From positions 62,001-126,000 of IMG/VR virus record IMGVR_UViG_3300027834_000005: 64,000 nt of DNA; one strand, given 5' to 3'. Source of the DNA: a virus. The translations under genes were made by a program, and so were the position numbers. Below the pieces are notes generated by a model. It was not told the DNA's origin and did no database searches. It worked only from the letters and a program-made list of their open reading frames with translations. This document shows positions 1 through 22,186 of the stretch, in pieces. The first letter of the stretch is position 1, and every line of letters begins with the position of its first letter.

Positions 1-290
1 TTGATGGCTCCATTAAATTCAACCATAGCTACGTTAATGGGTTCAAATGCGGGGAACAAACAACATGGAGAAGTAACGGCGTAATCTTCAGAAGTGAAAT
101 GTGCTCTTCAATCTCTGTGTTGCATGGCGAAGCAGTTGAAAGAGATAGAAACGGGTACGTAAATAGCCACTGCATATATGCTAATGGCGTGGTAGTTGAA
201 CGCCTTGACGATAGCGAACTCACCGACGAAGATAAGTTTGAGCTTAGGCTTAAGTACGGAGACATTGGTTTCCTAAAGCACTTCAAGTAG
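1..290 (+). CDS. class M array protein (MORN/YwqK-like), 5' end outside window
   Basis: The frame is open from base 3 to the stop at 290 with no good start, so the gene begins before the window. Two to three YwqK/MORN-like units are visible (NG, HGE and YVNG motifs). They are followed by the array tail TDEDKFELRLKYGDIGFL. Proteins of this repeat type are usually annotated as YwqK-family antitoxins, but no toxin partner is visible here. The next gene starts 9 bases downstream. Confidence 0.75.
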   Translation, partial: DGSIKFNHSYVNGFKCGEQTTWRSNGVIFRSEMCSSISVLHGEAVERDRNGYVNSHCIYANGVVVERLDDSELTDEDKFELRLKYGDIGFLKHFK

Positions 291-298
291 GAACGTAT

Positions 299-619
299 AT
301 GAGACAAGTTGATCGTGATGACATAGTTACAGGTACGAAGTTCTTATTGGTAGCTAAGCACACTAATGATATTGTCATTGGCGAGGTAATTTCAAAGTCT
401 AGAAGTAATTTTTACTACAAGATTGGAAACGGTAGAGTTTACGTGTTGGGTTTCACCACTACGGAGGTTTTGCCTGTGCCCGATTTGAGGGTCATACCAT
501 TAGACTATATGGATTGGTATGTGGAACAGGGCGAAATCAGAGACCAAGACGTTTTCCTCGCTAAGTTAAGTGGTGACTGGAACGACGTAGTAGATAAGAT
601 AACAGGAAGAAATCTATGA
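299..619 (+). CDS. class D array protein, 106 aa
   Basis: The protein is of unknown function. Residues 1-75 look like a compact beta-rich domain. The tail from about residue 81 (RDQDVFLAKLSGDW) is the class D form of the shared C-terminal signature. The stop overlaps the next start in an ATGA, implying translational coupling. Confidence 0.8.
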   Translation: MRQVDRDDIVTGTKFLLVAKHTNDIVIGEVISKSRSNFYYKIGNGRVYVLGFTTTEVLPVPDLRVIPLDYMDWYVEQGEIRDQDVFLAKLSGDWNDVVDKITGRNL

Positions 620-1002
620 CCATGCGTATTGTTACTTCTAGGGACCTAATCAATGAAGGAATGGAGCTTCTCCTTTTTTCATTCACTGATAAGGAGAAGC
701 ACTCACACGGCATATTCGTAGAGAAGTCTGTATCTATGTGGACTGAAGGCCCAGAGTATATAATAGATATCACCAGAAAAGACGGTAACACTACAAAGTT
801 TGGTGCTAAGAAACATGTATTAATGGGTGTCGTACCTTACTCAGAAAAAGATGGCATCAAGAAGTTCTTGGTTGCTATACCAGTTTCAAGTTTAGATGAG
901 AACGACCTGTTTCTGTTAAAACTAAGTAATAATGCTGATCATATAAGAGCTAAGACAAAAAAGCTTATCAACTCATATTCAATTGAACACTGGGTAGACT
1001 AA
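616..1002 (+). CDS. class D array protein, divergent tail, 128 aa
   Basis: The start lies in an ATGA overlap with the previous stop and has an AGGAAG ribosome site. The tail from about residue 93 (LDENDLFLLKLSNN) keeps the acidic-Phe-Leu pattern but has lost the SGDW core. A basic stretch of about 20 residues follows. Function unknown. Confidence 0.75.
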   Translation: MTMRIVTSRDLINEGMELLLFSFTDKEKHSHGIFVEKSVSMWTEGPEYIIDITRKDGNTTKFGAKKHVLMGVVPYSEKDGIKKFLVAIPVSSLDENDLFLLKLSNNADHIRAKTKKLINSYSIEHWVD

Positions 1003-1433
1003 TGTCGGAATTAAAACGCATAGTAGAAAGAAGTGGCGGAATCATAGAAACGTTCCAAGTTGATGAAACTGGCTCGAAACAGGGAGTCAGTGTTAGGACG
1101 TTCGAGAACGGAAAGCCATGGCTTATATCTTATTACCAAAATGGGTTCTTACATGGCGAATTCATAGAGCTGCACGAAGATGGGTACATACGTGAGCACT
1201 CTATGTACTCTAATGGTAAACAGTGCGGCGAGATGGTATTAAAAAGAGATGACAGGGTAGTACGCCATGAAATATGGTATAGTGCAGAATTGGTCCATAC
1301 ATTCATGTATCTTGGATCTATTTTCTGTGAACCAACAGAAGAAACCAAGTTTGAAATGACACTTAAATACGGCACCAAGTGGTTACCCAAGAGGACATAT
1401 GAAGAGTTATCAGCTGAATTTGAACAGTCCTAA
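1002..1433 (+). CDS. class M array protein (MORN/YwqK-like), 143 aa
   Basis: The gene starts in a TAATG overlap. Residues 28-85 hold about three YwqK-type units with NG and HGE turns. The tail begins near residue 110 (TEETKFEMTLKYGTKWLP) and has 14 extra residues, which overlap the ribosome site and start of the next gene. Confidence 0.8.
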   Translation: MSELKRIVERSGGIIETFQVDETGSKQGVSVRTFENGKPWLISYYQNGFLHGEFIELHEDGYIREHSMYSNGKQCGEMVLKRDDRVVRHEIWYSAELVHTFMYLGSIFCEPTEETKFEMTLKYGTKWLPKRTYEELSAEFEQS

Positions 1434-1722
1434 TTATAGAACTATAAATAAAAAAACATTAGTTCAAGATCTACCTCATAACACAATGCTTATCGGCATA
1501 GATAAGCATAATAGTGGGGATGCGATACACATACAGATTGGCGAAGATGGACGTCATATGTGTAACGGTTCGGTATGCTCTAACCTGCATCTTGATAATG
1601 ATAGATACGCATATGTACCTGAATCTAGCCTAAGTGAAGAAGCCGTGTTCGAAGCTAAGTTGCGTGGTGATTGGAGTGAAGTGGCAATTGAAGCTGCTTC
1701 ACTATACTACCGTGTCTATTAA
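1399..1722 (+). CDS. class D array protein, 107 aa
   Basis: The start at 1399 has a GAGG ribosome site at good spacing even though it lies 35 bases inside the previous gene. The tail from residue 78 (LSEEAVFEAKLRGDW) is a typical class D signature. Function unknown. Confidence 0.75.
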   Translation: MKSYQLNLNSPNYRTINKKTLVQDLPHNTMLIGIDKHNSGDAIHIQIGEDGRHMCNGSVCSNLHLDNDRYAYVPESSLSEEAVFEAKLRGDWSEVAIEAASLYYRVY

Positions 1723-1729
1723 TCCGTAT

Positions 1730-2155
1730 ATGAATCTTCCATTCGACCATCTCATATTCACTACGGATATGGAAGTGGGGAAGGAAATATTAGTGTACCG
1801 TCATGATGATCACGCTGGTGACAGGTATTCTTTTAAGGCTAATATATTCAGAGTACATGATGAATGTGATAGTGATGGTGATTATGATATGCAGCGCATG
1901 ATTGCCTCCCCAGATAACGTGATGGATCAGAAATTCAGCTTTGTTAGACTAGATGAATATAATGGCAACAAACTATGGATGGATTGCATTACGTTATTAG
2001 GTATACCTATACGGTATATAACCGATGAAGATCAGTTTCATGCCAGACTCACTGGGGATTGGAGAGACGTTGCTGATAAAATACGTATAGCTAGAGATGC
2101 GTACGATGAGAATGTTTTGGCTAAAGACTTAGAGGACTTCTTTGATGACTTATAG
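1730..2155 (+). CDS. class D array protein with acidic C-terminal extension, about 141 aa
   Basis: I chose the ATG at 1730, just after the previous stop. The ribosome site is weak, and a GTG at 1712 or an ATG at 1770 are alternatives. The signature is at residues 98-112 (TDEDQFHARLTGDW). About 30 further residues follow, ending in an acidic, Phe-rich stretch. Confidence 0.7.
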   Translation: MNLPFDHLIFTTDMEVGKEILVYRHDDHAGDRYSFKANIFRVHDECDSDGDYDMQRMIASPDNVMDQKFSFVRLDEYNGNKLWMDCITLLGIPIRYITDEDQFHARLTGDWRDVADKIRIARDAYDENVLAKDLEDFFDDL

Positions 2156-2471
2156 TTACTACCCGATAACAAAGCTTACTGATATACAACCATCAGATAC
2201 AGTGTATTACGTGTCTTTAAATCTACGTCAAGGTGTCAATCCTTTGACAGTTAGTATTGATGATGAATCGTGTATAACTTTAACGGCGGCTATGCCTACT
2301 AAATCAGGTAATGACAGTATTGAGTTGAAACATTATCACCTCCCTGATCAATACTCTAGTGAATTCTTAGTAAGAGCTGACAATATAGACCCTAAAGACA
2401 TATTTTATGTTAAGATTTCAGGGGACTACAAAGACCTACACAGGAAAGTATTAGATGCGTTCGAAAGGTGA
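2145..2471 (+). CDS. class D array protein, 108 aa
   Basis: An ATG at 2145 follows an AGAGGA ribosome site and overlaps the previous gene by 11 bases. The tail from residue 82 (DPKDIFYVKISGDY) substitutes ISGDY for LSGDW. Function unknown. Confidence 0.75.
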   Translation: MTYSYYPITKLTDIQPSDTVYYVSLNLRQGVNPLTVSIDDESCITLTAAMPTKSGNDSIELKHYHLPDQYSSEFLVRADNIDPKDIFYVKISGDYKDLHRKVLDAFER

Positions 2472-2790
2472 TATTAGTTGTGATTTTTACATGGAGTGTT
2501 TCGAATGTGCTGGTTTCTATTCATACGAAAAAGAACACGCACTAGGTGACATAATTAACGTGTTCGTTTATAGAGAATATGAACATGATTTCGTCATTAA
2601 AATAAGTTATCTAACTCCACTACATGAAACTAAATGGGGAATGATAACCGTAGAAGAAGACCACATCGTCATGGAGTTCGGTGTCAATGGTACATTCAAA
2701 TTCAAGCTTAGTATGACTGAAGATATAAAGTTTCAAAAATTACTTGATGGGTCTTTACCTACTATTTTTTTAGACGTGGATATAATATGA
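2455..2790 (+). CDS. class S array protein, 111 aa
   Basis: This is the first class S member. The tail from residue 87 (MTEDIKFQKLLDGSLPT) replaces SGDW with DGSLPT. The N-terminal part has two close cysteines near residue 13 (CFEC). It overlaps its neighbours by 17 and 4 bases. Confidence 0.75.
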   Translation: MRSKGDISCDFYMECFECAGFYSYEKEHALGDIINVFVYREYEHDFVIKISYLTPLHETKWGMITVEEDHIVMEFGVNGTFKFKLSMTEDIKFQKLLDGSLPTIFLDVDII

Positions 2791-3149
2791 AAGATATTTA
2801 CACAGAATCAAACTTTGAATTGATATGCATTAAGACAGAACATACTCCTATGACGTACGGTCATGTCCTTGGTAAAGTCCAACATATTACGTACACTTGT
2901 ACCTCTAAAAACGGAATAGTCCACGGTATACGTACCAACAGGGATACATACCAAACCACTAACAGAACGGAGGGGTATGCTAGTCTATTGTACGGAGGCG
3001 GTAGTTTAGGAGAATATGCACTGTACGTATTTAATATGGACGAAGAAGAGAAGTTTAAAAAAATATTAGATGGTTCCATCCCAACCTATCTGTCACACGT
3101 GATCACTGAAGGAGAGCACAATGAAAGAAAGAAGCGTATGTTTAAGTGA
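2787..3149 (+). CDS. class S array protein with basic tail, 120 aa
   Basis: It starts in an ATGA overlap. The tail from residue 84 (MDEEEKFKKILDGSIPTYL) is class S. A charged extension rich in Lys, Arg and Glu follows, overlapping the ribosome site of the next gene. Adjacent to another class S gene, it suggests tandem duplication. Confidence 0.75.
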   Translation: MKDIYTESNFELICIKTEHTPMTYGHVLGKVQHITYTCTSKNGIVHGIRTNRDTYQTTNRTEGYASLLYGGGSLGEYALYVFNMDEEEKFKKILDGSIPTYLSHVITEGEHNERKKRMFK

Positions 3150-3447
3150 TGGCGGTGGCAGAACAAAGTATTTCACTGACGAGGCTGGAGATGCCCAAGG
3201 TCTTTTTCTAGGATTCAGTGAAGAAGGCTACCTATGTACTCGTTGTATATTCTTGGACGATAAATGGCATGGTGAGTACGTACGGTACGATAAAGAAGGT
3301 AGCGTTATTGAGCGAGAGTTTTATGAACATGGTGTCCGTATTGTATTACCACCACACATGAACACGTTAAACCTTACGGACGAAGATCTATTCGAATTGA
3401 GATTCACCCACCACGAAATACAATACTTGCCGGAGATGGGAGAATGA
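3121..3447 (+). CDS. class M array protein (MORN/YwqK-like), 108 aa
   Basis: A strong AGGAG site precedes the ATG. Two YwqK-type units occupy residues 18-70 (HGEY turn visible). The tail from residue 85 (LTDEDLFELRFTHHEIQYL) diverges in its second half from the usual LKYGHMEFL. Confidence 0.8.
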   Translation: MKERSVCLSDGGGRTKYFTDEAGDAQGLFLGFSEEGYLCTRCIFLDDKWHGEYVRYDKEGSVIEREFYEHGVRIVLPPHMNTLNLTDEDLFELRFTHHEIQYLPEMGE

Positions 3448-3845
3448 TAATGCCGAGAAAGGAACAAATAATTGATTTCGAAGACAATGAGTTACCAATA
3501 TACTGCGTCCATGCTGACGAAATAGCTAAGCAGCAAGGCGGTCATTTTGTCGGACGCGAAGTCTACCTAACCAGATACTCAAAAACAGGTAGGTATATGG
3601 TATTGAAAGTTAAAGACAAAAGCAATGATACGTTTGAACATGTAACTTTCATATTATGTAAGGGGGTCCTAGTGGCTTCCTATTCAGAAAGCGACATCAC
3701 TATGTATATTCTTAACATGTCTGATATAGATTTGTTCCAAGCTAAACTGGAAGGCGCACACCCCACGTACTTACTTGACACCACCAGAGACAAAGACACG
3801 GATCTGCCTACGATAGAAGACATTCGTGAAACGATAAGGTCCTAA
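3444..3845 (+). CDS. class S array protein, 133 aa
   Basis: It starts in an ATGA overlap; an in-frame ATG two codons later is also possible. The signature at residue 92 (MSDIDLFQAKLEGAHPTYL) mixes the class D FQAKL and class S HPTYL features, linking the two subclasses. An acidic tail of about 20 residues follows. Confidence 0.75.
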   Translation: MIMPRKEQIIDFEDNELPIYCVHADEIAKQQGGHFVGREVYLTRYSKTGRYMVLKVKDKSNDTFEHVTFILCKGVLVASYSESDITMYILNMSDIDLFQAKLEGAHPTYLLDTTRDKDTDLPTIEDIRETIRS

Positions 3846-3846
3846 C

Positions 3847-4191
3847 ATGGATTCATACTGTCTAATAGAAAACATAAATGACTTAGAGAAAGGCGAATGG
3901 TACTACAGTATATTACGAAATGAGGCACATAGATGCGCTAAGATTAGTAGATACGCCCATTACCGTTCGATAGCATATATGATCCTTAAGGGCTATGAAT
4001 ATTCGCAAGACGGTTGGCTAGACGACGATGACATAACAGTATTCAATAAGGACCCATACCTCTACATAAAATTAGATTTGATCTCTGATGAAGACATGTT
4101 CCTCAGTAAGATGAGCGGTGATGGCTCCCACATAAAAGAGAAGGCTTACGTAGTTTCACACGGTTGTTATTATACCGAACTAACACGTTGA
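3847..4191 (+). CDS. class D array protein, 114 aa
   Basis: The tail from residue 79 (ISDEDMFLSKMSGDG) is class D, with Met replacing the usual Leu. It is the last gene of the first array operon. The promoter for the next set overlaps its stop codon. Confidence 0.75.
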   Translation: MDSYCLIENINDLEKGEWYYSILRNEAHRCAKISRYAHYRSIAYMILKGYEYSQDGWLDDDDITVFNKDPYLYIKLDLISDEDMFLSKMSGDGSHIKEKAYVVSHGCYYTELTR

Positions 4192-4216
4192 CAACGTCAT
4201 CATAATAAGGTAAAAT
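4188..4216 (+). promoter_or_regulatory. sigma70-type promoter inside the array
   Basis: The -35 is a perfect TTGACA (4188-4193) and the -10 is TAAAAT (4211-4216), with a 17-bp spacer. It lies in one of the few array gaps and should restart transcription at the 4241 gene. Confidence 0.75.
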
Positions 4217-4240
4217 GCTCGCTCAAGTAAGGGACTAAAC

Positions 4241-4624
4241 ATGACGCAGCAAACTGAAAGAAACCTAGACATCGTAGAAGAACTATCTGTGGGCGAAGTC
4301 TTCTTAGTAATGGATAAGGAGAAAGGCACTTCATGTTTATATGAGAAGATGCCAGATTCTGACGATTTGTTCGATTCGCCTAACTTCACTCGCATAGCTG
4401 GCGACCCAGAGATGAGAACATACGCCACAGTTTCCTATACCAATTTGGTCGTGTATAAACCATGCGAAACTAACTTCTTAGTTAAGGAAGAGAGTCTATT
4501 CCATGCCAAGCTATCAGGTGACTGGAGTCCGGTTCATCAAGATATCATGGCTCACCGTAAGAGATACTATGATGTGTACGTGCTGGACACCCATAATGCA
4601 TGGCAAGAGTCAAGAAAACAATAG
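4241..4624 (+). CDS. class D array protein, 127 aa
   Basis: First gene after the promoter at 4188. The signature begins at residue 82 (KEESLFHAKLSGDW). A 30-residue polar extension follows. Function unknown. Confidence 0.8.
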   Translation: MTQQTERNLDIVEELSVGEVFLVMDKEKGTSCLYEKMPDSDDLFDSPNFTRIAGDPEMRTYATVSYTNLVVYKPCETNFLVKEESLFHAKLSGDWSPVHQDIMAHRKRYYDVYVLDTHNAWQESRKQ

Positions 4625-4635
4625 GACATTATAAC

Positions 4636-5025
4636 ATGCACATTCCACTACACTGTACACAAGGTAACGTACAAGGTTCGTATTACCATCTTGCTTACCA
4701 TGCAAATGACACGGCGTTAGTATCCTTTCCTGAAGAACAACGCATAAGCACAGCTGGGTGTATGTTTGAATTTGAACCATCAGATGAAGAAGACGGTGAT
4801 TATTATATATGCTACGTGATAGATGGCGTGTTAGTTGTACCTTTTAGTGACGCGATTGTATACGTATTCGTTCTTGACATGACCGAGGAATCCAAATTCC
4901 AATGTCTACTTGATGGATCATTACCGTCCGTAATGTCTACCGTAACCAATGACAAGAACGTAAAAGTAGATATCACCTTCGATAGAATAAGTGAGCATCT
5001 GGAAGAATATCGCAACGTCATATAA
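4636..5025 (+). CDS. class S array protein, about 129 aa
   Basis: I placed the start at 4636, where AGGA lies 9 bases upstream; an in-frame ATG at 4600 inside the previous gene lacks a clear site. The signature at residue 82 (MTEESKFQCLLDGSLPS) is class S. A charged, probably helical extension of about 30 residues follows. Confidence 0.75.
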   Translation: MHIPLHCTQGNVQGSYYHLAYHANDTALVSFPEEQRISTAGCMFEFEPSDEEDGDYYICYVIDGVLVVPFSDAIVYVFVLDMTEESKFQCLLDGSLPSVMSTVTNDKNVKVDITFDRISEHLEEYRNVI

Positions 5026-5047
5026 TTACCATTCATTGGAGAATACG

Positions 5048-5500
5048 ATGATAAAATCAGAAAGTGGCAAAGACATAGTAGCCCACACTTTATACCATGA
5101 CAGTAAAGGTCTTGAGGTTGGCCTATGCGTTTTCATGCACGATTCCGTCACTATGCGCGAAACTTCAGAGTATTCCCGTGGGGACTATCACGGTGTTAGG
5201 AAGACTTGGTACACCAATGGACAACAATCTACTTACTCGGTGTACGAACACGGACGAAAAAACGGTATCTATCTCAGTTGGGACCTTGAGGGCAGACTAA
5301 ATTGCGTCATGTATTTCTGCAACGGTAAAAGACATGGGGAAATGAAGAGATATTCCTCTACAGGCGACTTATTTCATAAAATTCTCATCGATGATCACCC
5401 TCACTGTACCATGCCTATCACTGAAGAAGACAAGTTCGAACTGTGCCTTAGACACGAAGGATTATCTTTCATAGAGGACGACTATGATATACGACCATAA
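5048..5500 (+). CDS. class M array protein (MORN/YwqK-like), 150 aa
   Basis: The ATG at 5048 has GGAG seven bases upstream and is preferred over an upstream GTG. Four YwqK-type units fill residues 10-115 (YTNGQ, HGRKNG, CNGKRHGE). The tail from residue 124 is ITEEDKFELCLRHEGLSFI. Confidence 0.8.
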   Translation: MIKSESGKDIVAHTLYHDSKGLEVGLCVFMHDSVTMRETSEYSRGDYHGVRKTWYTNGQQSTYSVYEHGRKNGIYLSWDLEGRLNCVMYFCNGKRHGEMKRYSSTGDLFHKILIDDHPHCTMPITEEDKFELCLRHEGLSFIEDDYDIRP

Positions 5501-5798
5501 CAATGACGTTCCTAACGGAGAGATAGTCATAAACATGAACGAAGAGCTTATGGTTCCTTGGTCATGTAATCCTAGAATGAAACTTTCCTATGGAATTAAA
5601 CTTGACTTAGTAAATGGTAGACGTTTCTCTATACTTACTAACGTCCGTAAAGTTCATATGGTGTGTACGTTGGATGAGTTCAAATGCATAACTGAAGATA
5701 TGCTATTCCAAGCTCGCCTATCTGAAGACTGGAATGAGGTTGCCACTGCACTAAAGGATAATTCTCCATACCCATATATAAAACGTGACTTGCCATAA
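5484..5798 (+). CDS. class D array protein, 104 aa
   Basis: It overlaps the previous gene by 17 bases. The tail from residue 69 is ITEDMLFQARLSEDW, with Glu replacing the usual Gly. Its N-terminus (MIYD) resembles that of the 7549 gene, suggesting a duplicated pair. The next promoter overlaps its end. Confidence 0.75.
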   Translation: MIYDHNNDVPNGEIVINMNEELMVPWSCNPRMKLSYGIKLDLVNGRRFSILTNVRKVHMVCTLDEFKCITEDMLFQARLSEDWNEVATALKDNSPYPYIKRDLP

Positions 5799-5818
5799 CG
5801 TCGAATATACTGTATAAT
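5790..5818 (+). promoter_or_regulatory. sigma70-type promoter inside the array
   Basis: TTGCCA (5790-5795), a 17-bp spacer and a perfect TATAAT (5813-5818) precede the class M gene at 5851. Confidence 0.75.
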
Positions 5819-5850
5819 TACGCTCACACCTGAAGAGTCCAAATAATACT

Positions 5851-6234
5851 ATGAATTTAAAACTTATCGAGACTGATAACGAGTTATACCATATTGATGC
5901 CACTGGTAAAATTCAAGGTGAATACCGCAGAAGATACCGTAGTGGCGCTCGTCAAGTGAGAAGCTTCTACGTAGATGATAAAGCGGAAGGAATGTTTCGT
6001 AGTTGGCATGAAAATGGCACGCCTTGTGTCAATTGCATGATGAAAAACAATGCACCGCATGGTGAATATTTGATGCTGCACGATTGTGGATCAGTCAACG
6101 AACACACCATCCACATTGATGGCGTTACGATAGTGACTCCAGAACACATAGACGTTACAGACATGTCAGAGACAGACATGTTTGAATTGAAACTTTTATA
6201 TGGAGACATAGGTTTCCTTCGTGACAATAAATGA
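5851..6234 (+). CDS. class M array protein (MORN/YwqK-like), 127 aa
   Basis: First gene after the promoter at 5790. Three YwqK-type units are visible (GEYRRRY, WHENG, HGEY). The tail from residue 105 is MSETDMFELKLLYGDIGFL, nearly the same as that of the first gene in the window. Confidence 0.8.
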   Translation: MNLKLIETDNELYHIDATGKIQGEYRRRYRSGARQVRSFYVDDKAEGMFRSWHENGTPCVNCMMKNNAPHGEYLMLHDCGSVNEHTIHIDGVTIVTPEHIDVTDMSETDMFELKLLYGDIGFLRDNK

Positions 6235-6542
6235 CTACCATAAAGAAAAAAACCACTAATGGGTCCTATTGGCATGAAAATGACAACGGCGACAAGCATG
6301 GATTTTTCTGTAAGATGTACAGTAATGGGCTGCCATGGTGTGTGGGTTTCTACAGGAACAACGTATTACACGGCGAATCAATACACTTCAATAAAGATGG
6401 TACTGCCATAGAACGAGTCATATACATAGATGACTGCGCAGTAGAACGTCACGTTAGTCTGATGACCCCAGAAGAGAAATTTGAATACTGCTTGCGCAAT
6501 GGCCAAGTTGAATTCTTAGGAGAAGAATATGACGCCTTTTAA
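6231..6542 (+). CDS. class M array protein (MORN/YwqK-like), 103 aa
   Basis: It starts in an ATGA overlap. Two YwqK-type units at residues 10-60 (SNGLPW, HGES) precede the tail at residue 78 (MTPEEKFEYCLRNGQVEFL). Confidence 0.8.
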   Translation: MTTIKKKTTNGSYWHENDNGDKHGFFCKMYSNGLPWCVGFYRNNVLHGESIHFNKDGTAIERVIYIDDCAVERHVSLMTPEEKFEYCLRNGQVEFLGEEYDAF

Positions 6543-6867
6543 TATGATGTGCACCAATATAATGGGCGATCTTTCGTTCACTAACGCACATAAGATAGGC
6601 ATTGGCGTCACAGTCAATAGGGTGATAAAACACTCAGACCGTGATGTGTACACATTTGAACTAACCCATCATGTAGATGGTTCTCACTATGACAATGAAT
6701 ACTACGTCACGTTTGAAGAAGGCAAGTTTAGGATTGCATATGGCATCCATGAGGACTGTAGTTTTTCATACGCGGTTTACGACATAGAATTTTTGAGTGA
6801 CGAAGAGCAATTCCATTGCGTGTTATCTGGTGAATTGCCTAAATGGATAGAGGTAGAATTCGAATGA
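6529..6867 (+). CDS. class S array protein (SGELP variant), 112 aa
   Basis: An AGGAG site lies inside the preceding gene. The tail from residue 89 (LSDEEQFHCVLSGELPKW) joins the LSG of class D to the LP of class S. The closest relative in the array is the 7172 gene. Confidence 0.75.
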   Translation: MTPFNMMCTNIMGDLSFTNAHKIGIGVTVNRVIKHSDRDVYTFELTHHVDGSHYDNEYYVTFEEGKFRIAYGIHEDCSFSYAVYDIEFLSDEEQFHCVLSGELPKWIEVEFE

Positions 6868-7175
6868 ACTATAAGATGATCAGACACTTACCTCTTAATG
6901 AGCCGGTATACCACACTAATTCGTTAACAGGAAACATAGCCGGTGCCGTAATTAGAATGACCAAGTATAAATTATTAGATTTAGAAACAATGGACATACG
7001 GCCATTAGGATTCTACGGCGGTTACCGTGACTTTAAGCCTCTAACTAATCTCACTGCGGTGCCTGATGATTCTATATTCAAAGCTATTCTATCTGACGAT
7101 TGGAAAGAGGTACAATCACTCATTCCTTTCTATGCATTCCCATACACAGACGAACATGAAGGTATCAAGTTTTGA
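6864..7175 (+). CDS. class D array protein, about 103 aa
   Basis: The start at 6864 uses an ATGA overlap. An in-frame ATG at 6843 is possible but overlaps more. The signature at residue 66 is VPDDSIFKAILSDDW, followed by about 20 aromatic-rich residues. Confidence 0.75.
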   Translation: MNYKMIRHLPLNEPVYHTNSLTGNIAGAVIRMTKYKLLDLETMDIRPLGFYGGYRDFKPLTNLTAVPDDSIFKAILSDDWKEVQSLIPFYAFPYTDEHEGIKF

Positions 7176-7552
7176 GTAATAATCACATAGACGAACCAGA
7201 AGTGGCATTTAACCTTACGCTTATAGATAGACAAGGTCATATAAACGAAAGAGTGGACTGTCCAGAAACAATGGCAGTGGACACGTTCATCTTATTAAGC
7301 GATGACGACATAGATGGCCTACCCGCGTATAGGATGTGGTATGGGGATGGTCATAGCTTTTACGTCACTGTGGAAGAAGGTAATGTGCGAGTTGGGTTTA
7401 ATTGCCGTACACAAGAAGACTATGCATATTTATTATATAGCATAGATGGTTTGACCGAGGAAGATAAACTATACTACGCATTAAGCGGTGAGTTACCTGA
7501 GTGTTTAGCTACGTGCATTGAAAAACGCACCGCAAAGAGATATACATTTTGA
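7172..7552 (+). CDS. class S array protein (SGELP variant), 126 aa, TTG start
   Basis: The only well-placed start is a TTG at 7172, overlapping the previous stop, with AAGG upstream. The signature at residue 94 is LTEEDKLYYALSGELP. A basic extension follows. Confidence 0.7.
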   Translation: MSNNHIDEPEVAFNLTLIDRQGHINERVDCPETMAVDTFILLSDDDIDGLPAYRMWYGDGHSFYVTVEEGNVRVGFNCRTQEDYAYLLYSIDGLTEEDKLYYALSGELPECLATCIEKRTAKRYTF

Positions 7553-7842: not shown

Positions 7843-7845
7843 AAC

Positions 7846-9311: not shown

Positions 9312-9312
9312 A

Positions 9313-11842: not shown

Positions 11843-11843
11843 A

Positions 11844-13764: not shown

Positions 13765-13845
13765 GCTAGTAATACTATCCATACTTGCGAAGAAGATAAA
13801 TTTGAGATATACTTGATCTACGGTCATATGGAATTTATACCATGA
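13765..13845 (+). pseudogene. orphan class M tail without repeats
   Basis: Directly after the stop of the previous gene, an in-frame stretch encodes THTC-like residues followed by EEDKFEIYLIYGHMEFIP and a stop. That is a complete class M tail with no start codon and no repeat domain. It closely matches the tail of the following gene (TSEEDKFEICLKYGHMDFI). It looks like the remnant of a deleted or recombined copy. Confidence 0.7.
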
Positions 13846-14809: not shown

Positions 14810-15348
14810 AACTTAAAGAGATAAAGACACGAACCATACACTACTTCGAAGATGAACTTGGACGAAGACAAGGTGAACTAATTCTTCGTTATGAGGAGAA
14901 ACCATCACAAATTAAATCCATTAATAATTACGTTGATGGTATTAAAGTTGGCACCAGTATAGATTGGTACATGAACGGTAAGATAAGAACCGTGGCCAAC
15001 TACGTGAATGAGCTTAAGGAAGGTAACCACGCTGAATGGCACGAAAGCGGCAATAAACGATCACGTACTTTTTACAAGGACGGTTCAGAGCATGGCGAGT
15101 ACATGGACTGGCATGCGAACGGTCAGTTATGGGAGCACGTATTTCTAATAGATAGTGCAGAAAACGGAGAGTCTATAATTTTCGACATATATGGTAATGT
15201 AACAGACCATGACATTTTTGTTAATGGTACGATAATTGATGTTCCAATCCCTACGTGTGAAGAAGAACAGTTTCTCTTGTGCCTTGAGTATGGACACATG
15301 GAATTCTTTCCTATAGGTATGTATGAACTTACAGCAAGTAAACACTAG
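14806..15348 (+). CDS. class M array protein, recent paralog of the 14282 gene, 180 aa
   Basis: The domain layout and length match the 14282 product, including GEYMDWHANGQLWEH. The tail from residue 150 is TCEEEQFLLCLEYGHMEFF. It overlaps neighbours by 4 and 26 bases. Confidence 0.85.
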   Translation: MKLKEIKTRTIHYFEDELGRRQGELILRYEEKPSQIKSINNYVDGIKVGTSIDWYMNGKIRTVANYVNELKEGNHAEWHESGNKRSRTFYKDGSEHGEYMDWHANGQLWEHVFLIDSAENGESIIFDIYGNVTDHDIFVNGTIIDVPIPTCEEEQFLLCLEYGHMEFFPIGMYELTASKH

Positions 15349-15613
15349 AGAAGAAACGTTCACCGTGGACAGAGATACCGGATGCATGGAAGGTGAATAT
15401 GTTAGCCGGTACAGTGACGGCTCAGTAAATATACACTGCTTCTATAAGAAGCATAAATTACATGGTGAGTTCAAAAGATGGGTGAATAGTATAAAACCAC
15501 TCGTCCATATTATATACATTGATGGGGTCCATTCCGATATCACTCCTCCAGTCACTGAGGAGGAAAGGTTCCTTTTCAAATTACAATACGATCTTCCATT
15601 ATTAGGAGAGTAA
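15323..15613 (+). CDS. class M array protein, short, 96 aa
   Basis: Two YwqK-type units (GEYVSRYSDG, HGEFKRW) precede a tail with an altered end (VTEEERFLFKLQYDLPLLG from residue 77). An AGG site is placed for the ATG at 15323 inside the previous gene. Confidence 0.8.
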   Translation: MNLQQVNTREETFTVDRDTGCMEGEYVSRYSDGSVNIHCFYKKHKLHGEFKRWVNSIKPLVHIIYIDGVHSDITPPVTEEERFLFKLQYDLPLLGE

Positions 15614-15615
15614 AC

Positions 15616-15954
15616 ATGACCCCATCAGAGAAATTAATACGGTCAGCATCCATTGGTGACACGATACTAATTGCCGAAAAGCGTGATTCCGTCACGTGGT
15701 CTGTAGATGAAACTAAGCTAGTGGTACAAGATGTGATTCTGTATGGTGAGAGAACCATAAAATATACGTTCAAGGATAATGACGAAACAGAGAGACTTAC
15801 CATGTCTATTTCTGACTGTGATCTTGAGCGTATATTCCGATCACACGAGCAAGTCATCTTATTAGTTAAGATCATCCCAGAAGACATCATGTTCCAATGT
15901 AAATTGTCAGGTGACTACTCAGACGCTGTGGCGTTCCAAGGCTTTGCTCCGTGA
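15616..15954 (+). CDS. class Q array protein, 112 aa
   Basis: This is the first of five consecutive class Q genes. The N-terminus has SIGDTILIAEK and a VTWS motif. The tail from residue 87 is IPEDIMFQCKLSGDYSDA, ending in a hydrophobic Gly-Phe. Confidence 0.8.
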   Translation: MTPSEKLIRSASIGDTILIAEKRDSVTWSVDETKLVVQDVILYGERTIKYTFKDNDETERLTMSISDCDLERIFRSHEQVILLVKIIPEDIMFQCKLSGDYSDAVAFQGFAP

Positions 15955-16268
15955 ACAAATTCGAACGCCTAGTTAACAATTTTGAAGCTGGGGATAGATT
16001 ACTAATCCTACGTTCAAGGGAAGGCGTTTGGATTCTGTACGAAGAAGCTACGATAACCAGAGACCCTGATTTTGACTTTAAGTTTAACTTCAAGTATGAT
16101 GGCAATCCAACAATATACAACTCTGATGCATCAGAGCTAGAAGCCATAAACAATGCTGGGTCATTTGCTATGGTATTGAAAAGAGATGTGCCAGAAGAGT
16201 TATTATTTCAATGTGTACTATCTAATACATACGACGAAGTACTAAGGTACTTGGGATATATACAATGA
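15951..16268 (+). CDS. class Q array protein, 105 aa, GTG start
   Basis: It starts with GTG in a GTGA overlap. The N-terminus is FEAGDRLLILR and the tail from residue 80 is VPEELLFQCVLSNTYDEV. Confidence 0.8.
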   Translation: MNKFERLVNNFEAGDRLLILRSREGVWILYEEATITRDPDFDFKFNFKYDGNPTIYNSDASELEAINNAGSFAMVLKRDVPEELLFQCVLSNTYDEVLRYLGYIQ

Positions 16269-16588
16269 ATATGTACATAGAGTTCATCGACATCTTGGTA
16301 GACACTGACACTGTTGTGATCGTACAGGAAAATCACGATAAAACGTGGACTAAAGCTAGTGAACTCATTGTGACATCTGTGAAACGACGTACCAAGCCAT
16401 CTTTTCTATATAGGCTAAATCATGACCATAATGTTTATGAGCTAACATGCAAAGATTTAGCTAGACTAAGTAACTCCAATGATTTTTCATTCGTACTCGA
16501 AAGAGTCATACCTGAAGATGTATTGTTCCAATGCAGACTGTCTGGCAACTACGCAGAAGCAATAAGACACCATGGGTTCACGTCATGA
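16265..16588 (+). CDS. class Q array protein, 107 aa
   Basis: It starts in an ATGA overlap. The TDTVVIVQE and KTWT motifs match its neighbours. The tail from residue 82 is IPEDVLFQCRLSGNYAEA. Confidence 0.8.
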   Translation: MNMYIEFIDILVDTDTVVIVQENHDKTWTKASELIVTSVKRRTKPSFLYRLNHDHNVYELTCKDLARLSNSNDFSFVLERVIPEDVLFQCRLSGNYAEAIRHHGFTS

Positions 16589-16938
16589 AATCAGAACTAT
16601 TTTGCTACAGAGATTTCCTATACTCATTGAAAGTGGGAGACAGAATCATGCGTATTCGATACATTCCTGAGAAATTCGAACATGTAGATACGTTAACTAT
16701 TACGCATATATCAACGCCTATAGGTCACACTCCTATATGCTCCTACACCTCCAGTGCTACCGGAGATAAGAGAATCAGGTTGTCAATGGGAAGCTTGGAA
16801 TATATGGAGCGTCAAGAAGGCATATACACTAGGAAGGAAGAAGAAATATTGAAAGGCGTACCTGAAGATATTCTATTTCAATGTGTGTTATCTAATGACT
16901 ACACAGATGCTCTTAAGTATAGGGGGTTCAAGGTATGA
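16585..16938 (+). CDS. class Q array protein, 117 aa
   Basis: I placed the start at the ATGA overlap (16585). The N-terminus is SLKVGDRIMRI and the tail from residue 92 is VPEDILFQCVLSNDYTDA. Confidence 0.8.
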   Translation: MKSELFCYRDFLYSLKVGDRIMRIRYIPEKFEHVDTLTITHISTPIGHTPICSYTSSATGDKRIRLSMGSLEYMERQEGIYTRKEEEILKGVPEDILFQCVLSNDYTDALKYRGFKV

Positions 16939-17255
16939 ATCTATATGAACAGCTCACTCATGACGCAAACACCAATGACATCTTAATAGTCGTACAGAAG
17001 GACAAAGCCAGTGAAGCGTGGACATTAAACCTAGTCGTACGAGTAGTCGTCGCGTCTAAAATGGACTTCGTTAGATTCAAGGCAGACGAATGGACCATAG
17101 GCACAAACGTATCCATTAAGGAATTAGAACAGTACCACGTACATTCTAACCTATGTCTTCTTTTAGAGAAAAACATACCAGAGGACATTCTATTTCATGC
17201 TAGACTGTCTGAAGACTACACTGATGCCGCAAGACTCGCGGGGTATATAGAATGA
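16935..17255 (+). CDS. class Q array protein, 106 aa
   Basis: It starts in an ATGA overlap. The tail from residue 81 is IPEDILFHARLSEDYTDA, where HARLSED approaches class D. It closes the run of five. Confidence 0.8.
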   Translation: MNLYEQLTHDANTNDILIVVQKDKASEAWTLNLVVRVVVASKMDFVRFKADEWTIGTNVSIKELEQYHVHSNLCLLLEKNIPEDILFHARLSEDYTDAARLAGYIE

Positions 17256-17563
17256 CATATGCATATCATGACATGAAGAAAGGCGATAAGTTCTACTACC
17301 CTGTGGGGTTTGAAGATGTCCCTAAAGAATGGATAGTAACACGTGCATCTAATAGATCCCAACCTATGACTGTGTACCGTGGGGGGACAGGTTCACACCC
17401 CGTGTCTTTAGAAGAGGACACATGGAATAGAACCGTCACGGACGGCGTCATTGTTACGTATGGGCAGATCTTGACAGCAGTAGGAGAAGAGTGTATGTTT
17501 GAACATGAACTGGCTGGCACAGTAACCTCACTGCTCGCGGAGATGAAGAATGACAAGTTTTAA
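17252..17563 (+). CDS. class L array protein, 103 aa
   Basis: The N-terminus MKKGDKFYYPVG is typical of class L. The tail from residue 77 is VGEECMFEHELAGTVTSLL. It starts in an ATGA overlap. Confidence 0.8.
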   Translation: MTYAYHDMKKGDKFYYPVGFEDVPKEWIVTRASNRSQPMTVYRGGTGSHPVSLEEDTWNRTVTDGVIVTYGQILTAVGEECMFEHELAGTVTSLLAEMKNDKF

Positions 17564-17651
17564 TGATGTGAAAGTAGGTGACATTTTGTACTACCCAGTA
17601 GCTGGATCATTAAGTGATCTATTACGGGACATGGGCAATTGGAATGTGTGA
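17550..17651 (+). CDS. internally deleted class L mini-gene, 33 aa
   Basis: The 33-residue frame starts inside the previous gene. It encodes a class L N-terminus (FNDVKVGDILYYPV) running straight into AGSLSDLLRDMG, which looks like the last part of a class L tail (AGTLYDLLSAYG). The middle 60 or so residues are missing. It may be a decayed copy or a functional minimal form. Confidence 0.5.
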   Translation: MTSFNDVKVGDILYYPVAGSLSDLLRDMGNWNV

Positions 17652-17952
17652 GTATGATGATTTAGAAGTGGGTGATGTATTCTATCATCCCGCAGGCCAT
17701 CCAAGAAAGAAAGCGAATAAGTGGACAATAATCCAACAGAGACGTACAAAGAACCTTGTTGCTATACGTGATGGTAGCGAAGATAAACGCGGAACACAAA
17801 TAAGTAAAACGCAATGGCACATACTGAGTGCACGTAATAGGATTGTCTCACATAAGAAATTACTGAGTGATAACAGCGAAGAAACTATATTCTTACATAC
17901 GCTCGCTGGCACTCTATATGATTTACTGAGTGCATACGGCCCATCAGACTAA
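17644..17952 (+). CDS. class L array protein, 102 aa
   Basis: The ATG at 17644 overlaps the stop of the mini-gene. The N-terminus is DLEVGDVFYHPAG and the tail from residue 77 is NSEETIFLHTLAGTLYDLL. Confidence 0.75.
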   Translation: MCEYDDLEVGDVFYHPAGHPRKKANKWTIIQQRRTKNLVAIRDGSEDKRGTQISKTQWHILSARNRIVSHKKLLSDNSEETIFLHTLAGTLYDLLSAYGPSD

Positions 17953-17963
17953 GGTAGATAGTT

Positions 17964-18290
17964 ATGGAAGCATACGTAAAAGCACTACATGGTGCTAAAA
18001 AAGGCGACATTGTTACAGTAGTTGAATACGACGAGGATAACAGATCGTGGGATCTCTTCATAGAGATAAAAATCGTGAGTTTACATACATATCCCATGCG
18101 ATTAGAGTACACGCATGAAGGAATGAGCATCACCAACTACGTTAACCTTGATAATCTACTGAGCACCGGCATAAATGCCATTTTCTTAAGAAGAACTATA
18201 CCGGAAGACATTATATTCCAATGTTCGTTATCAGGCAACTATGTAGAGGCTGTAAAGTACCACGGATACGATACCTATGAAACTGCATAA
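17964..18290 (+). CDS. class Q array protein, 108 aa
   Basis: It is separated from the main class Q run by the class L genes. The N-terminus is AKKGDIVTVVE and the tail from residue 79 is IPEDIIFQCSLSGNYVEA. AAGG lies upstream of the ATG. Confidence 0.8.
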   Translation: MEAYVKALHGAKKGDIVTVVEYDEDNRSWDLFIEIKIVSLHTYPMRLEYTHEGMSITNYVNLDNLLSTGINAIFLRRTIPEDIIFQCSLSGNYVEAVKYHGYDTYETA

Positions 18291-18570
18291 AATAGAGACA
18301 CCTTCATACATCATGTTCGTAGATGAGTATGGAAGGAAACAAGGTACATTTAAAGAATTCTATGAGGATGGACGATTAGAATACATATACAACTATGTAG
18401 ATGATCTTAAGCATGGCGATTATAAAGGATACACAAAGGACGGAGAAATTCTAGTCCATACACTATGTATTAATGGTGAGTTTGTGCATAGGTATCACAT
18501 TAACGGTCCTCTATCAGCCGAAGACAAGTTCGAGCTGTGCCTTAAGCACGGACATTTGGAGTTCCTATAA
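18277..18570 (+). CDS. class M array protein (MORN/YwqK-like), 97 aa
   Basis: Two to three YwqK-type units (GTFKEFYEDG, HGDYKGYTKDG) precede the tail at residue 79 (LSAEDKFELCLKHGHLEFL). Its last 64 coding bases differ at only one position from those of the next gene. Confidence 0.85.
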   Translation: MKLHKIETPSYIMFVDEYGRKQGTFKEFYEDGRLEYIYNYVDDLKHGDYKGYTKDGEILVHTLCINGEFVHRYHINGPLSAEDKFELCLKHGHLEFL

Positions 18571-18860
18571 TGTTAACTGAACATACGTCTAGTTTTTATA
18601 ACTACTTCACTGATAACCTTGGAAGGAAACAAGGTTTATTCAATACGTACTACGATAATGGCCAAAAAGAACAACATGACTACTTCGTGAATGATAAAAG
18701 ACATGGCGATAGTAAAAGTTACTACACTGGCGGTCAACTACGTACCCACATACTATTCATAAATGGGTCTATGCACCATAGCTACCTATGCGATGGTCCT
18801 CTATCAGCCGAAGACAAGTTCGAGCTGTGCCTTAAGTACGGACATTTGGAGTTCCTATGA
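18570..18860 (+). CDS. class M array protein, recent paralog of the 18277 gene, 96 aa
   Basis: The layout matches the preceding gene, with a TAATG junction. The repeat units have diverged (GLFNTYYDNG, HGDSKSYYTGG), while the tail LSAEDKFELCLKYGHLEFL is almost identical at DNA level. Confidence 0.85.
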   Translation: MLTEHTSSFYNYFTDNLGRKQGLFNTYYDNGQKEQHDYFVNDKRHGDSKSYYTGGQLRTHILFINGSMHHSYLCDGPLSAEDKFELCLKYGHLEFL

Positions 18861-19150
18861 AACATAAAGATATGCAAGTAGGCGATACCTTCTACCATTA
18901 CGGCATACGCGAGGTAGCTAAATGGAAGATAGACAGCATTAGCGTGATACACGTTATTGTTATAGGTGAAGGTGGTAACCCAGTAACTGTGAGCTTAGGT
19001 AGCTGGGGCGCACTAGTGAGAGAATGTACTATGGTGGCACATAAAGACTTAGTTGAAACCTACGGGGAAGAAGCAGTGTTTGAACATACTTTGTCCGGTA
19101 CAGTTAAAGACCTTTTATCCACATACAAAGAATTATCTAATAGACTATAA
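18857..19150 (+). CDS. class L array protein, 97 aa
   Basis: It starts in an ATGA overlap. The N-terminus is MQVGDTFYHYG and the tail from residue 69 is YGEEAVFEHTLSGTVKDLL. It is the last gene before a promoter-containing gap. Confidence 0.8.
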   Translation: MKHKDMQVGDTFYHYGIREVAKWKIDSISVIHVIVIGEGGNPVTVSLGSWGALVRECTMVAHKDLVETYGEEAVFEHTLSGTVKDLLSTYKELSNRL

Positions 19151-19163
19151 CATAAACTTATGG

Positions 19164-19169
19164 TATACT
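19164..19169 (+). promoter_or_regulatory. probable -10 box for the 19207 gene
   Basis: TATACT follows a GG in the 56-base gap before the 19207 gene. I see no good -35 box at 16-18 bases, so this is weak. Confidence 0.35.
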
Positions 19170-19206
19170 CTCTCATCACACACAGAACACCTACAAGGAT
19201 AGTAAT

Positions 19207-19869
19207 ATGAACGAAGAAACAACAGCCGTAGATACAGAAGCAGCAGAAGATCAAAATGTAACTATGGGACAAAGAGACATCACTACCCATGGCACACTGG
19301 ACAACAGTAAAGCAATGGAGTCTGCAGACGGCGATTGCATATGGATGGTGAGAGATGGCAAGCTAGAAATCATCAAGAAACATGAAGAATACTTCCTATG
19401 TATGTTATTCGATCACGTGAATAAAGCCTATGGCATAACCATTGAGAGAAACCCATGTGAGGGTGCCACTCATAGATTACCTTGCTTACAACAAACCATC
19501 GTTACGTATCCTGATGCCAAGCAAGATGACGGGAGCACAAAGGAAGTGGGATACATTCTGCAGCACTTTACACCGCCTGACACAATGACTGGCATACCTA
19601 ACTTAGAGAACACTGAGTCTCGTAGTAAGATGAAGATCACTATGGCTGATGGTAAAGTCGTTAAGAGCAAGAACCATATGCTCGTGCAACTAGACACAGG
19701 AAAGACTCTTCATGATAAGAAGAAAGCATTCACTAAGAAAGATAAAACCATGCACGTGAATAGACATGGCGTTACGCACTGGTTAGATGATAAACTTGTG
19801 AGACTGTCAGAGGACTTCTTCCGTCTGTACTCTGAAATCCCAGATAGCACAATCACTGAACTAACCTAG
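19207..19869 (+). CDS. hypothetical protein without the array tail, 220 aa
   Basis: AAGGA precedes the ATG. The protein is much longer than its neighbours and lacks the array signature. It has an acidic, Thr-rich N-terminus (residues 1-35), a central region with four cysteines, and a basic Lys-rich stretch (residues 150-185). I do not recognise a family. Confidence 0.8.
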   Translation: MNEETTAVDTEAAEDQNVTMGQRDITTHGTLDNSKAMESADGDCIWMVRDGKLEIIKKHEEYFLCMLFDHVNKAYGITIERNPCEGATHRLPCLQQTIVTYPDAKQDDGSTKEVGYILQHFTPPDTMTGIPNLENTESRSKMKITMADGKVVKSKNHMLVQLDTGKTLHDKKKAFTKKDKTMHVNRHGVTHWLDDKLVRLSEDFFRLYSEIPDSTITELT

Positions 19870-19889
19870 TCCGTTTAAGGAATATTCCT

Positions 19890-20192
19890 GTGAGTACTCT
19901 AACTGAACATAGGTCTCTGACTTATCACTATTTCGGTGATGATGACGGGAATATACATGGTGAATATAAGGGCTGGTGTGATGACGGTACACAAACTGTG
20001 CATGCATTATACGTCCATGGAAAAAGACATGGTGAGTACAAGAGCTGGTATAATGATGGGGATTTAAGCACCCATTGCATATACGTTCATGGAAAAAGAC
20101 ATGATGTGCCTTACATCGATATCTTATCTGATGAAGACAAATTCGAGCTATGTCTCATACATGGACATATGGAGTTCTTACCCAATACATAA
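19890..20192 (+). CDS. class M array protein (MORN/YwqK-like), 100 aa, GTG start
   Basis: A GTG at 19890 has AAGGA eight bases upstream. Two near-repeated YwqK-type units both end in HGKRH. The tail from residue 79 is LSDEDKFELCLIHGHMEFL. Confidence 0.8.
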   Translation: MSTLTEHRSLTYHYFGDDDGNIHGEYKGWCDDGTQTVHALYVHGKRHGEYKSWYNDGDLSTHCIYVHGKRHDVPYIDILSDEDKFELCLIHGHMEFLPNT

Positions 20193-20515: not shown

Positions 20516-20550
20516 CTCCTACATAAATTACCATTAGTGACGCATATCAA

Positions 20551-20862
20551 ATGAAGCTAACAGAACACATAACAGACACTTGCCACTTCTTTAAAGATGA
20601 AGAAGGAAGAACTCAAGGCGAATACATATCGTGGTATGATGAAGATAAACAGCAATGTAGTTGTCATTGTTTCTATAAGGATGGCAAAGCTCATGGAGAA
20701 TATTTATCCCTGTATTTTGATGGGAATATCGCATCACACCTTATCATCGTAAATGGCATCGGCACTTCTGAATGCCCTGACAATCTCACAGAAGAAGATA
20801 AGTTTGAGATATGTCTAAAGTATGGACATATGAAATTCCTCACTAACAACTGGAATACGTAA
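20551..20862 (+). CDS. class M array protein (MORN/YwqK-like), 103 aa
   Basis: First gene after the 358-base gap. Two YwqK-type units (GEYISWYDED, HGEYLSLYFDG) precede the tail at residue 79 (LTEEDKFEICLKYGHMKFL). Confidence 0.85.
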   Translation: MKLTEHITDTCHFFKDEEGRTQGEYISWYDEDKQQCSCHCFYKDGKAHGEYLSLYFDGNIASHLIIVNGIGTSECPDNLTEEDKFEICLKYGHMKFLTNNWNT

Positions 20863-21230
20863 TGGATATCAAAGATATAAAAGTAGGCGATATCATCTAC
20901 TACCAACAACTACCTGGTCGCCCACTAGAAACACACAAGGTAGTAGAACTCCGCATGAACAAAAATAAACCCACTGTATGTGTACGTTACGCAGAAGATG
21001 GAGGACATCGCTCTCTCATCACAGAGAAAGAATATGATGAACTCAGAGAGAACGGTAGACTCATCACAGACAAAGAAGCACGAACTAATTTTTCCGATGA
21101 AGAACTATTCCAAGCTGAGCTAGCAGGAGACACACCACAACTCATTACCAAGTACTTGGAAAACAAAGCCAAAGCATTCGATGCACATCTCATACACAAG
21201 AGCACATTGCCATATGCCCCAGATGAATGA
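20862..21230 (+). CDS. class L array protein with long extension, 122 aa
   Basis: It starts in a TAATG overlap. The N-terminus is IKVGDIIYYQQ. The signature at residue 77 is FSDEELFQAELAGDTPQLI, mixing class D and class L features. A 25-residue extension follows. Confidence 0.75.
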   Translation: MDIKDIKVGDIIYYQQLPGRPLETHKVVELRMNKNKPTVCVRYAEDGGHRSLITEKEYDELRENGRLITDKEARTNFSDEELFQAELAGDTPQLITKYLENKAKAFDAHLIHKSTLPYAPDE

Positions 21231-21576
21231 TTACTATAGCTTACAAGTGGGAGATGAGTACTACTACCCCATAGGACACCACCCACTAAAAATCAACACG
21301 TGGACCGTAGAACAGATACCAACGTCCCCACAAGGAGGCACTACATACGTGAGAAGAGATTTCGATAAGGTACGGTCTGCCATATCTCTACCCAACTGGA
21401 TGTCTCTAGTGGCAAAAGGAAACATCGTCACAAAGAAATACCTCATAGATATGGTGGGGGAAGAAGAACTCTTTCAACACATACTAGCCGACACTCTTAA
21501 AGACCTACTACTCATAGCGAAGATACAGATGATAGAGGAAGGCAAGGATACGATACGTAAAGGAATAATGAGATGA
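21223..21576 (+). CDS. class L array protein, 117 aa
   Basis: The start at 21223 overlaps the previous stop. The N-terminus is LQVGDEYYYPIG and the tail from residue 78 is VGEEELFQHILADTLKDLL. A basic helical extension follows. Confidence 0.75.
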   Translation: MNDYYSLQVGDEYYYPIGHHPLKINTWTVEQIPTSPQGGTTYVRRDFDKVRSAISLPNWMSLVAKGNIVTKKYLIDMVGEEELFQHILADTLKDLLLIAKIQMIEEGKDTIRKGIMR

Positions 21577-21878
21577 CCAAGCACATACCCGATAAAGACT
21601 CATCTCTATATGGCGTGCAAGAGGGAGACAAATACTACTCCATAAGAGAACATGAAGCCAACCTATGGATTGTACACACCGTACGACAAAGACATATATG
21701 CATAACTAATGAAGGCGATGACAAACTAACCCTCACTAAAGATAGCTGGTATACGCTCATAGCAACACAAATCATGGTAGCACATGAAGACTTAATACAT
21801 GCGTACGGAGAAGAAGCACTCTTCCAACACCTACTAGCTGATACCCTATTAGAACTACTAACTCTATATACTGATTAA
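21573..21878 (+). CDS. class L array protein, 101 aa
   Basis: It starts in an ATGA overlap. The N-terminus is VQEGDKYYSI and the tail from residue 78 is YGEEALFQHLLADTLLELL, closest to the preceding gene. Confidence 0.8.
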   Translation: MTKHIPDKDSSLYGVQEGDKYYSIREHEANLWIVHTVRQRHICITNEGDDKLTLTKDSWYTLIATQIMVAHEDLIHAYGEEALFQHLLADTLLELLTLYTD

Positions 21879-21889
21879 TAGGCAAGAAG

Positions 21890-22186
21890 ATGAATCTAAC
21901 TGAACATAACACTCCAAGTAGAAGTCCATGCTTCCACGACGAGAATAGAAACAAACAAGGTCTGTATTCGCGTACTTTTTTCACAGGAAAGGAAGCCGCA
22001 CGAGTATTCTACCTTGATAACTATGAACATGGTGAAGTGAAGCGCTGGTGCGTTAACGGAGATGTACTTGAACATGCCATCTATGTACGTGGGCACGTAG
22101 TTAAAGACCTCATGAACGACATACTCACTGATGAAGATAAGTTCCTACTGTGCCTAGAACATGGACACATGGAATTCTTATCATAA
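21890..22186 (+). CDS. class M array protein, last of the array, 98 aa
   Basis: Two YwqK-type units (GLYSRTFFTG, HGEVKRWCVNG) precede the tail at residue 79 (LTDEDKFLLCLEHGHMEFL). An AGAAG site precedes the ATG. Downstream lies a long non-coding segment. Confidence 0.8.
   Translation: MNLTEHNTPSRSPCFHDENRNKQGLYSRTFFTGKEAARVFYLDNYEHGEVKRWCVNGDVLEHAIYVRGHVVKDLMNDILTDEDKFLLCLEHGHMEFLS

Follow-up and report, generated by a model that had tools for sequence, protein, structure and literature searches.

A constant C-terminal tail behind unrelated heads in an array of small genes of a T4-like jumbo phage

Why would a phage carry dozens of small adjacent genes whose products begin differently and end alike? 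The question is raised by the first 22 kb of a 64,000-nucleotide stretch (the window; positions refer to it unless the contig is named) that corresponds to bases 62001-126000 of a 347,232-base IMG/VR virus record, IMGVR_UViG_3300027834_000005 (hereafter G000). G000 is a T4-like jumbo phage. Its large terminase has 59% identity to those of PA5oct and Paride, both Pseudomonas phages, as well as to that of an uncultured 328-kb contig (G001), and 47% to that of the Sinorhizobium phage Phosso. The array proteins share one C-terminal tail behind unrelated N-terminal parts (heads), the tail is under selection at the protein level, and the genes have undergone cassette turnover. Our tentative reading is that they are binders expressed early, diversified in their heads and provided with an unchanging docking helix.

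The array and its tail

Window positions 1-22186 contain 60 consecutive, tightly packed plus-strand genes with a median product of 112 aa, the first of them beginning before position 1. Among the 59 gene junctions, 41 overlap or abut, 19 of these overlapping by exactly 4 nt, and the array is interrupted by seven short gaps (43-78 bp) and a longer one (358 bp). A C-terminal signature, [ST]xEEDxFxxxLxG, is present in 58 of the 60 genes, the exceptions being 7846-8142, encoding a signal-peptide protein, and 19207-19869, encoding a 220-aa protein. The initial annotation, made from the sequence alone, had described about 58 such genes in these 22 kb; the count holds, but the extent was too narrow, since the array continues upstream of the window (contig ~16-38 kb and 49-62 kb) and a separate group is found at 201-231 kb. 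At contig 206270-208021, four tandem D-like tailed genes (~137-146 aa; head types are given below) have the ending KKLRKAFNxWKK in common and form a small separate array among other genes.

In the first 84 kb, the signature pattern matched 68 of 224 plus-strand open reading frames (ORFs) against 3.5 in shuffled sequences, and none of 175 minus-strand ORFs. An iterated hidden Markov model (HMM) of the tail recovered 95 ORFs at an independent E-value (i-E) below 0.01, all on the plus strand, with no hit in reversed sequences. Within these 95 tails the near-invariant core is Glu at -3 (90), Phe at 0 (94) and Leu at +4 (77). The acidic, Phe and Leu positions of the first description thus stand, but the Gly that it placed after them occurs in only ~50%. 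A whole-genome profile built from 50 tails found 107 ORFs at i-E <= 0.1 (none reversed) and 129 at i-E <= 1 (one reversed), its match in G000 ending at a median of 5 residues from the protein end (90th percentile 22); by the iterated HMM, many members have 10-40 residues C-terminal of the tail. Five of the 58 array members have a profile i-E above 1: the genes starting at 11024, 17252 and 21573 are homologous to clear members along their whole length, and those at 9650 and 12430 remain weak. The best minus-strand ORF, 59266-59697 (143 aa, near tail-fibre genes), bears a tail-like PEDEFFEAKLRGT and may be a member itself.

The heads had been sorted into five types, M (YwqK/MORN-like), D, S, Q and L. 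When each class was left out of the profile in turn, the same tail residue was located in 53 of 55 proteins (D 13/14, S 8/8, Q 6/6, L 9/9, M 17/18). Tail-to-tail HMM-HMM comparisons between classes, on alignments trimmed at the motif, mostly reached 67-97% probability (D-Q 97%, S-L 96%, D-M 67%), with Q-M failing, and head-to-head comparisons gave at most 12%. Both approaches indicate that the tails are related between classes, as had been supposed.

Heads and predicted folds

The D, Q and L profiles align with each other over their full length at 92-94% probability, and the five types are therefore reduced to three: MORN, SH3-like and S. M and S stand as first described, while D, Q and L probably form one SH3-like superfamily according to the profiles and the model below. 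Two M genes were scanned singly with Pfam MORN_2 (PF07661), which returned 52.5 bits for 10093-10671 and 29.6 bits for 14806-15348, against a cut-off of 29.6.

AlphaFold2 predicted an SH3-like barrel plus helices for the L gene 18857-19150 (predicted local distance difference test, pLDDT, 92.6; predicted template modelling score, pTM, 0.80), with five strands within residues 11-61 and tail helices at 71-80 and 83-96. For the M gene 20551-20862, the model contains MORN hairpins and a single helix at 81-91 (pLDDT 89, pTM 0.77). Foldseek placed the first model near PWWP, Tudor, a designed SH3 and the myosin N-terminal SH3 (E >= 0.03), and the second, in the PDB, near SET7/9, MORN1, MORN4 and junctophilin (none at E < 0.001). 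As modeled, the MORN heads and the SH3-like heads have folds with no relation to each other, and the motif occupies an equivalent place in both, the start of the C-terminal helix. The i, i+3, i+7 spacing of E(-3), F(0) and L(+4) corresponds to one helix face, so that the conserved residues of E-x-x-F-x-x-x-L would point the same way from the first tail helix.

Other relationships of these proteins were also searched. The tail resembles half an ankyrin repeat, and no Pfam ankyrin match was obtained in ten array proteins scanned; none of the libraries gave an F-box match. The larger tail-bearing proteins were inspected by eye as candidate fusions to known enzymes; no enzyme was recognized, and some of them repeat the small domain in tandem. 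A role as DNA mimics was set aside, the array proteins being just mildly acidic (median isoelectric point 5.06 vs 5.57). The suggested link of the YwqK-like heads to immunity proteins was not borne out: 21 M members gave no PADLOC match and no toxin gene was recognized beside M genes. In NCBIfam, the sole match of M proteins was an adhesin with similar repeats, far under its cut-off.

Tail selection and cassette turnover

In 25 close paralogue pairs, which share members and are not independent, pooled synonymous differences are 0.76 in the head and 0.82 in the tail, saturated alike, and nonsynonymous differences are 0.45 in the head and 0.22 in the tail. At conserved tail positions codon use is near background, the +4 Leu using all six codons, and no Rfam match was found. 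Since tail codons are near background and synonymous sites have diverged as elsewhere, selection acts on the tail protein.

Three features of the sequence directly record cassette turnover. The M genes 18277-18570 and 18570-18860 have a common 3' 64 bp with 98% identity, although 60% of the residues in their heads are different. An orphan M-type tail (13768-13842), the relic of a replaced gene, lies in frame directly behind the stop of the L gene 13429-13764. A third trace, at 17550-17620 (MTSFNDVKVGDILYYPVAGSLSD), is the N-terminal start of an L-gene head, with both body and tail missing. Heads thus appear to be exchanged without loss of the tail.

Distribution in other genomes

The G000 heads were not found in 16 other genomes, except for one weak MORN-only match in G001, and a related-locus search in IMG/VR returned no relatives of the genes combining MORN and tail. 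The tail itself was not found in T4, KVP40, phiKZ, S-PM2, Aeh1, P-SSM2, CcrColossus or phage G. On the other hand, G001 carries a short version of the tail on ~33 small proteins, mostly in arrays at its ends, and Phosso has 53 proteins with a C-terminal motif of the DAMLFKLTW type. A degenerate DNA pattern for DAMLFKLxW found 66 stretches in IMG/VR, and in all 80 of the reading frames whose stop could be seen, the motif lies 1-24 residues before it. Five contigs of 277-465 kb have 40-61 DAMLFKLTW-type copies each, a 183-kb contig has 41, and contigs of 425 and 608 kb have 17 and 21. Ten of these proteins were scanned with no significant Pfam or PHROG match. In bacterial genomes there were 3 pattern matches, one of them a coincidence in a long unrelated protein.

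Tail profiles match at 89.9% probability between G000 and G001 and at 95.6% between G001 and Phosso, the direct G000-Phosso comparison giving 4.8% (not significant). The G000 tail may thus be related to the Phosso-type motif with G001 as an intermediate, though over ~18 columns convergence is possible. A third local tail version is found in IMGVR_UViG_3300031687_000001, where six tandem paralogues at locus positions 11159-12948 end in DERKMMLRLQYG.

Promoters and gene content

Matches to sigma70-like promoters were found in 6 of the 7 short array gaps, against a random expectation of 0.95 (P=0.0003). They lie at 4188-4216 and 5790-5818 (11/12 matches each), 9632-9661, 11428-11455, 13785-13813 (overlapping the orphan tail) and 19141-19169, all on the plus strand. 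Because such matches are not enriched over window positions 1-20000 as a whole (59 vs 68 expected), it is their placement within gaps that counts, and this would be consistent with early expression by the host polymerase. Outside the array the window has seven perfect TTGACA-TATAAT promoters (0.17 expected), at 22372, 28268, 43946, 46111 and 52861 on the plus strand and 60489 and 61002 on the minus strand; none is inside it.

All array genes are on the plus strand. The M genes with tail begin with 1-290, whose start lies upstream at contig 61835, followed by 1002-1433, 3121-3447, 5048-5500, 5851-6234, 6231-6542, 10093-10671 (the longest MORN head), 10659-11036, the short 11832-12068, 13842-14285, 14252-14809 (which may start at 14282), 14806-15348, 15323-15613, the pair at 18277 and 18570, 19890-20192, the modeled 20551-20862 and 21890-22186, the final gene of the array. 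Tailed D genes are found at 299-619, 616-1002, 1399-1722, 1730-2155, 2142-2471, 3847-4191, 4241-4624, 5484-5798, 6843-7175, 7549-7842, 8139-8558, 9313-9606, 11024-11380 (weak on the HMM, homologous in full length to the 9313 gene) and 11459-11842, and tailed S genes at 2455-2790, 2787-3149, 3444-3845, 4600-5025, 6529-6867, 7172-7552, 8555-8974 and 8940-9311.

The second half of the array has the tailed Q genes 15616-15954, 15951-16268, 16265-16588, 16531-16938, 16935-17255 and 17964-18290, and the tailed L genes 12801-13136, 13133-13432, 13429-13764, 17252-17563, 17614-17952, 18857-19150, 20862-21230, 21181-21576 and 21573-21878. Two genes with weak tails have heads of no assigned class (9650-10096 and 12430-12810), and the tailed 12056-12433 has a D/L-like head of no firm class. 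Elsewhere in the window there are a tRNA-Arg(tct) at 38979-39055, with 87-94% identity to tRNAs in PA5oct, Acinetobacter and Listeria phage records, and a tRNA-Met(cat) at 39222-39298.

What the tail may do

The explanation we favor, tentatively, is that the array is a diversity locus of this T4-like jumbo phage, encoding at least ~107 small, mostly cytosolic proteins, which would probably be made from polycistronic early genes via host-sigma70-type promoters. Each member would combine a changeable head of a kind suited to binding (a MORN solenoid, an SH3-like barrel or the S type) with a constant C-terminal amphipathic helix carrying the fixed E-x-x-F-x-x-x-L face. That face would dock all members onto one common partner, which could be a phage protein, a host protein or other members, while the heads would diversify to bind many host or defense factors, and the set would provide adaptors or binders, one exchangeable for another, during host takeover or counter-defense. 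The initial annotation had also proposed a docking tail with changeable heads; the constant tail and the changeable heads are supported by the HMMs, by selection and by the cassette relics, and the docking step is what we infer from them. A wider version, in which a widely shared docking helix recruits dozens to more than 100 interchangeable, rapidly evolving heads to one effector in many jumbo phages, serving host takeover or counter-defense as a phage analogue of the F-box adaptor arrays of viruses, we regard as possible but doubtful.

Several points weigh against docking. Expression, interactions and timing are all deduced. The bit scores of held-out M and S proteins are modest, not above the best minus-strand ORF, and trimming the HMM-HMM tail alignments at the motif favors a match, leave-one-class-out being the less biased test. 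The high model confidence, with pTM of 0.77-0.80, suggests that the helix packs on its own head, as a structural cap would. Finally, the presence of Clp and M41 genes does not follow the tail, and no common partner was found by co-occurrence of these genes or by gene-presence profile.

The partner candidates were the following. G000 encodes ClpA- and ClpX-type unfoldases (contig 337398-339620 and 292024-293238) with Clp_N and the ClpX zinc finger, and ClpB_D2-small matches occur in nearly all jumbo relatives checked. Clp unfoldases are present in full-length tail-bearing jumbo phages, yet phages with a marginal tail or none (PA5oct, Paride and Atu_ph07) have them as well, and they were rejected. 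Between array blocks, at contig 23032-24966, there is a protease gene with FtsH-like AAA and Peptidase_M41 domains; it was likewise discarded, being present in G000, PA5oct and Paride and not in G001 or Phosso. Five genes fit the profile of presence in G000, G001 and Phosso and absence from PA5oct, none of them convincing, and the three scanned had no Pfam family.

Docking is closely followed by a structural explanation, somewhat less probable in our judgment, in which the tail is a C-terminal cap kept by common descent: in an ancient paralogue family, the last helix would be the least changeable part while heads diverged or were swapped, with no docking at all. The helix folded with high confidence and good pTM in the models agrees with it, as do the relationship of D, Q and L along their full length and the Phosso-type motif, a strand plus helix that resembles part of a small alpha/beta domain. 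However, a cap should co-vary with its head, and the same Glu-Phe-Leu face is found on MORN and SH3-like folds that are predicted to be unrelated; packing by itself hardly accounts for a Glu that stays the same when the heads are unrelated. Moreover, both a tract of recombination and a relic map to the tail.

The tail could instead be a degron that marks early proteins for degradation at a set time by phage or host Clp proteases, which we consider unlikely. The motif is always near the C-terminus, as the 80 of 80 DAMLFKLxW matches show, and tail-bearing jumbo phages encode Clp unfoldases, ClpA and ClpX being confirmed in G000. Nevertheless, tail-less relatives have the same unfoldases, the tail is predicted as a folded helix rather than a disordered end, and many members continue for 10-40 residues after it. 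Less probable still are virion or inclusion-body components with the tail as an assembly or packaging signal: one motif in high copy number would suit them, but the array lies apart from structural genes, no structural family was matched and the sigma70-like promoters in gaps fit early genes better. A nucleic-acid reason for keeping tail DNA (translation coupling, an RNA element or a recombination site) is largely refuted and highly improbable, despite the position of the tail at gene ends and its near-identical DNA in one gene pair, by the synonymous divergence, near-background codon use and negative Rfam result given above.

Whatever its role, the tail is a handle on short hypothetical genes without a family, which make up a large share of jumbo-phage genomes, reaching ~107 of them in G000 and 53 in Phosso, with 40-61 per genome in several uncultured jumbo phages. 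Should it be a docking signal, one pull-down could reveal the purpose of this gene mass, and the array would show a phage diversifying host-directed binders by swapping heads before a fixed tail.

Comparison with known systems

The claim that a shared tail had not been described before agrees with Pfam, PHROG, NCBIfam and literature searches; the literature search found no description of such a tail or array, with incomplete coverage, so novelty is not proven. The M heads resemble MORN_2/YwqK-type proteins (PF07661), their nearest solved structures being SET7/9, MORN1 and MORN4, and differ from them by the additional C-terminal helix tail, with no immunity or toxin partner seen. In poxviruses and giant viruses, the F-box and ankyrin-PRANC families combine variable binding repeats with a constant C-terminal docking motif and are expanded within one genome. 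The likeness of the G000 array to them is by analogy, with a putative docking and a bacterial host that lacks ubiquitin ligases.

Among jumbo phages, Bacillus phage G also has a large paralogue expansion of a small protein, a zinc ribbon in ~35 copies (PMC7824862), but it copies one domain, whereas G000 puts one tail on unrelated heads. The same work notes that some jumbo phages encode ClpA/ClpX, and MORN goes unmentioned in it (PMC7824862). The related phage PA5oct has a terminal array of small paralogues and early small-gene arrays, which have no tail and whose constant part is N-terminal, MDLILxLQ; one such array occupies bases 408-3255 of NC_071039. The DAMLFKLTW proteins of Phosso and the uncultured jumbo phages are likewise small, with varied front parts, a strand-helix motif near the stop and tens of copies per genome. 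Unlike those of G000, the Phosso proteins do not form one contiguous array, and their helix register is D-A-M-L-F-K-L.

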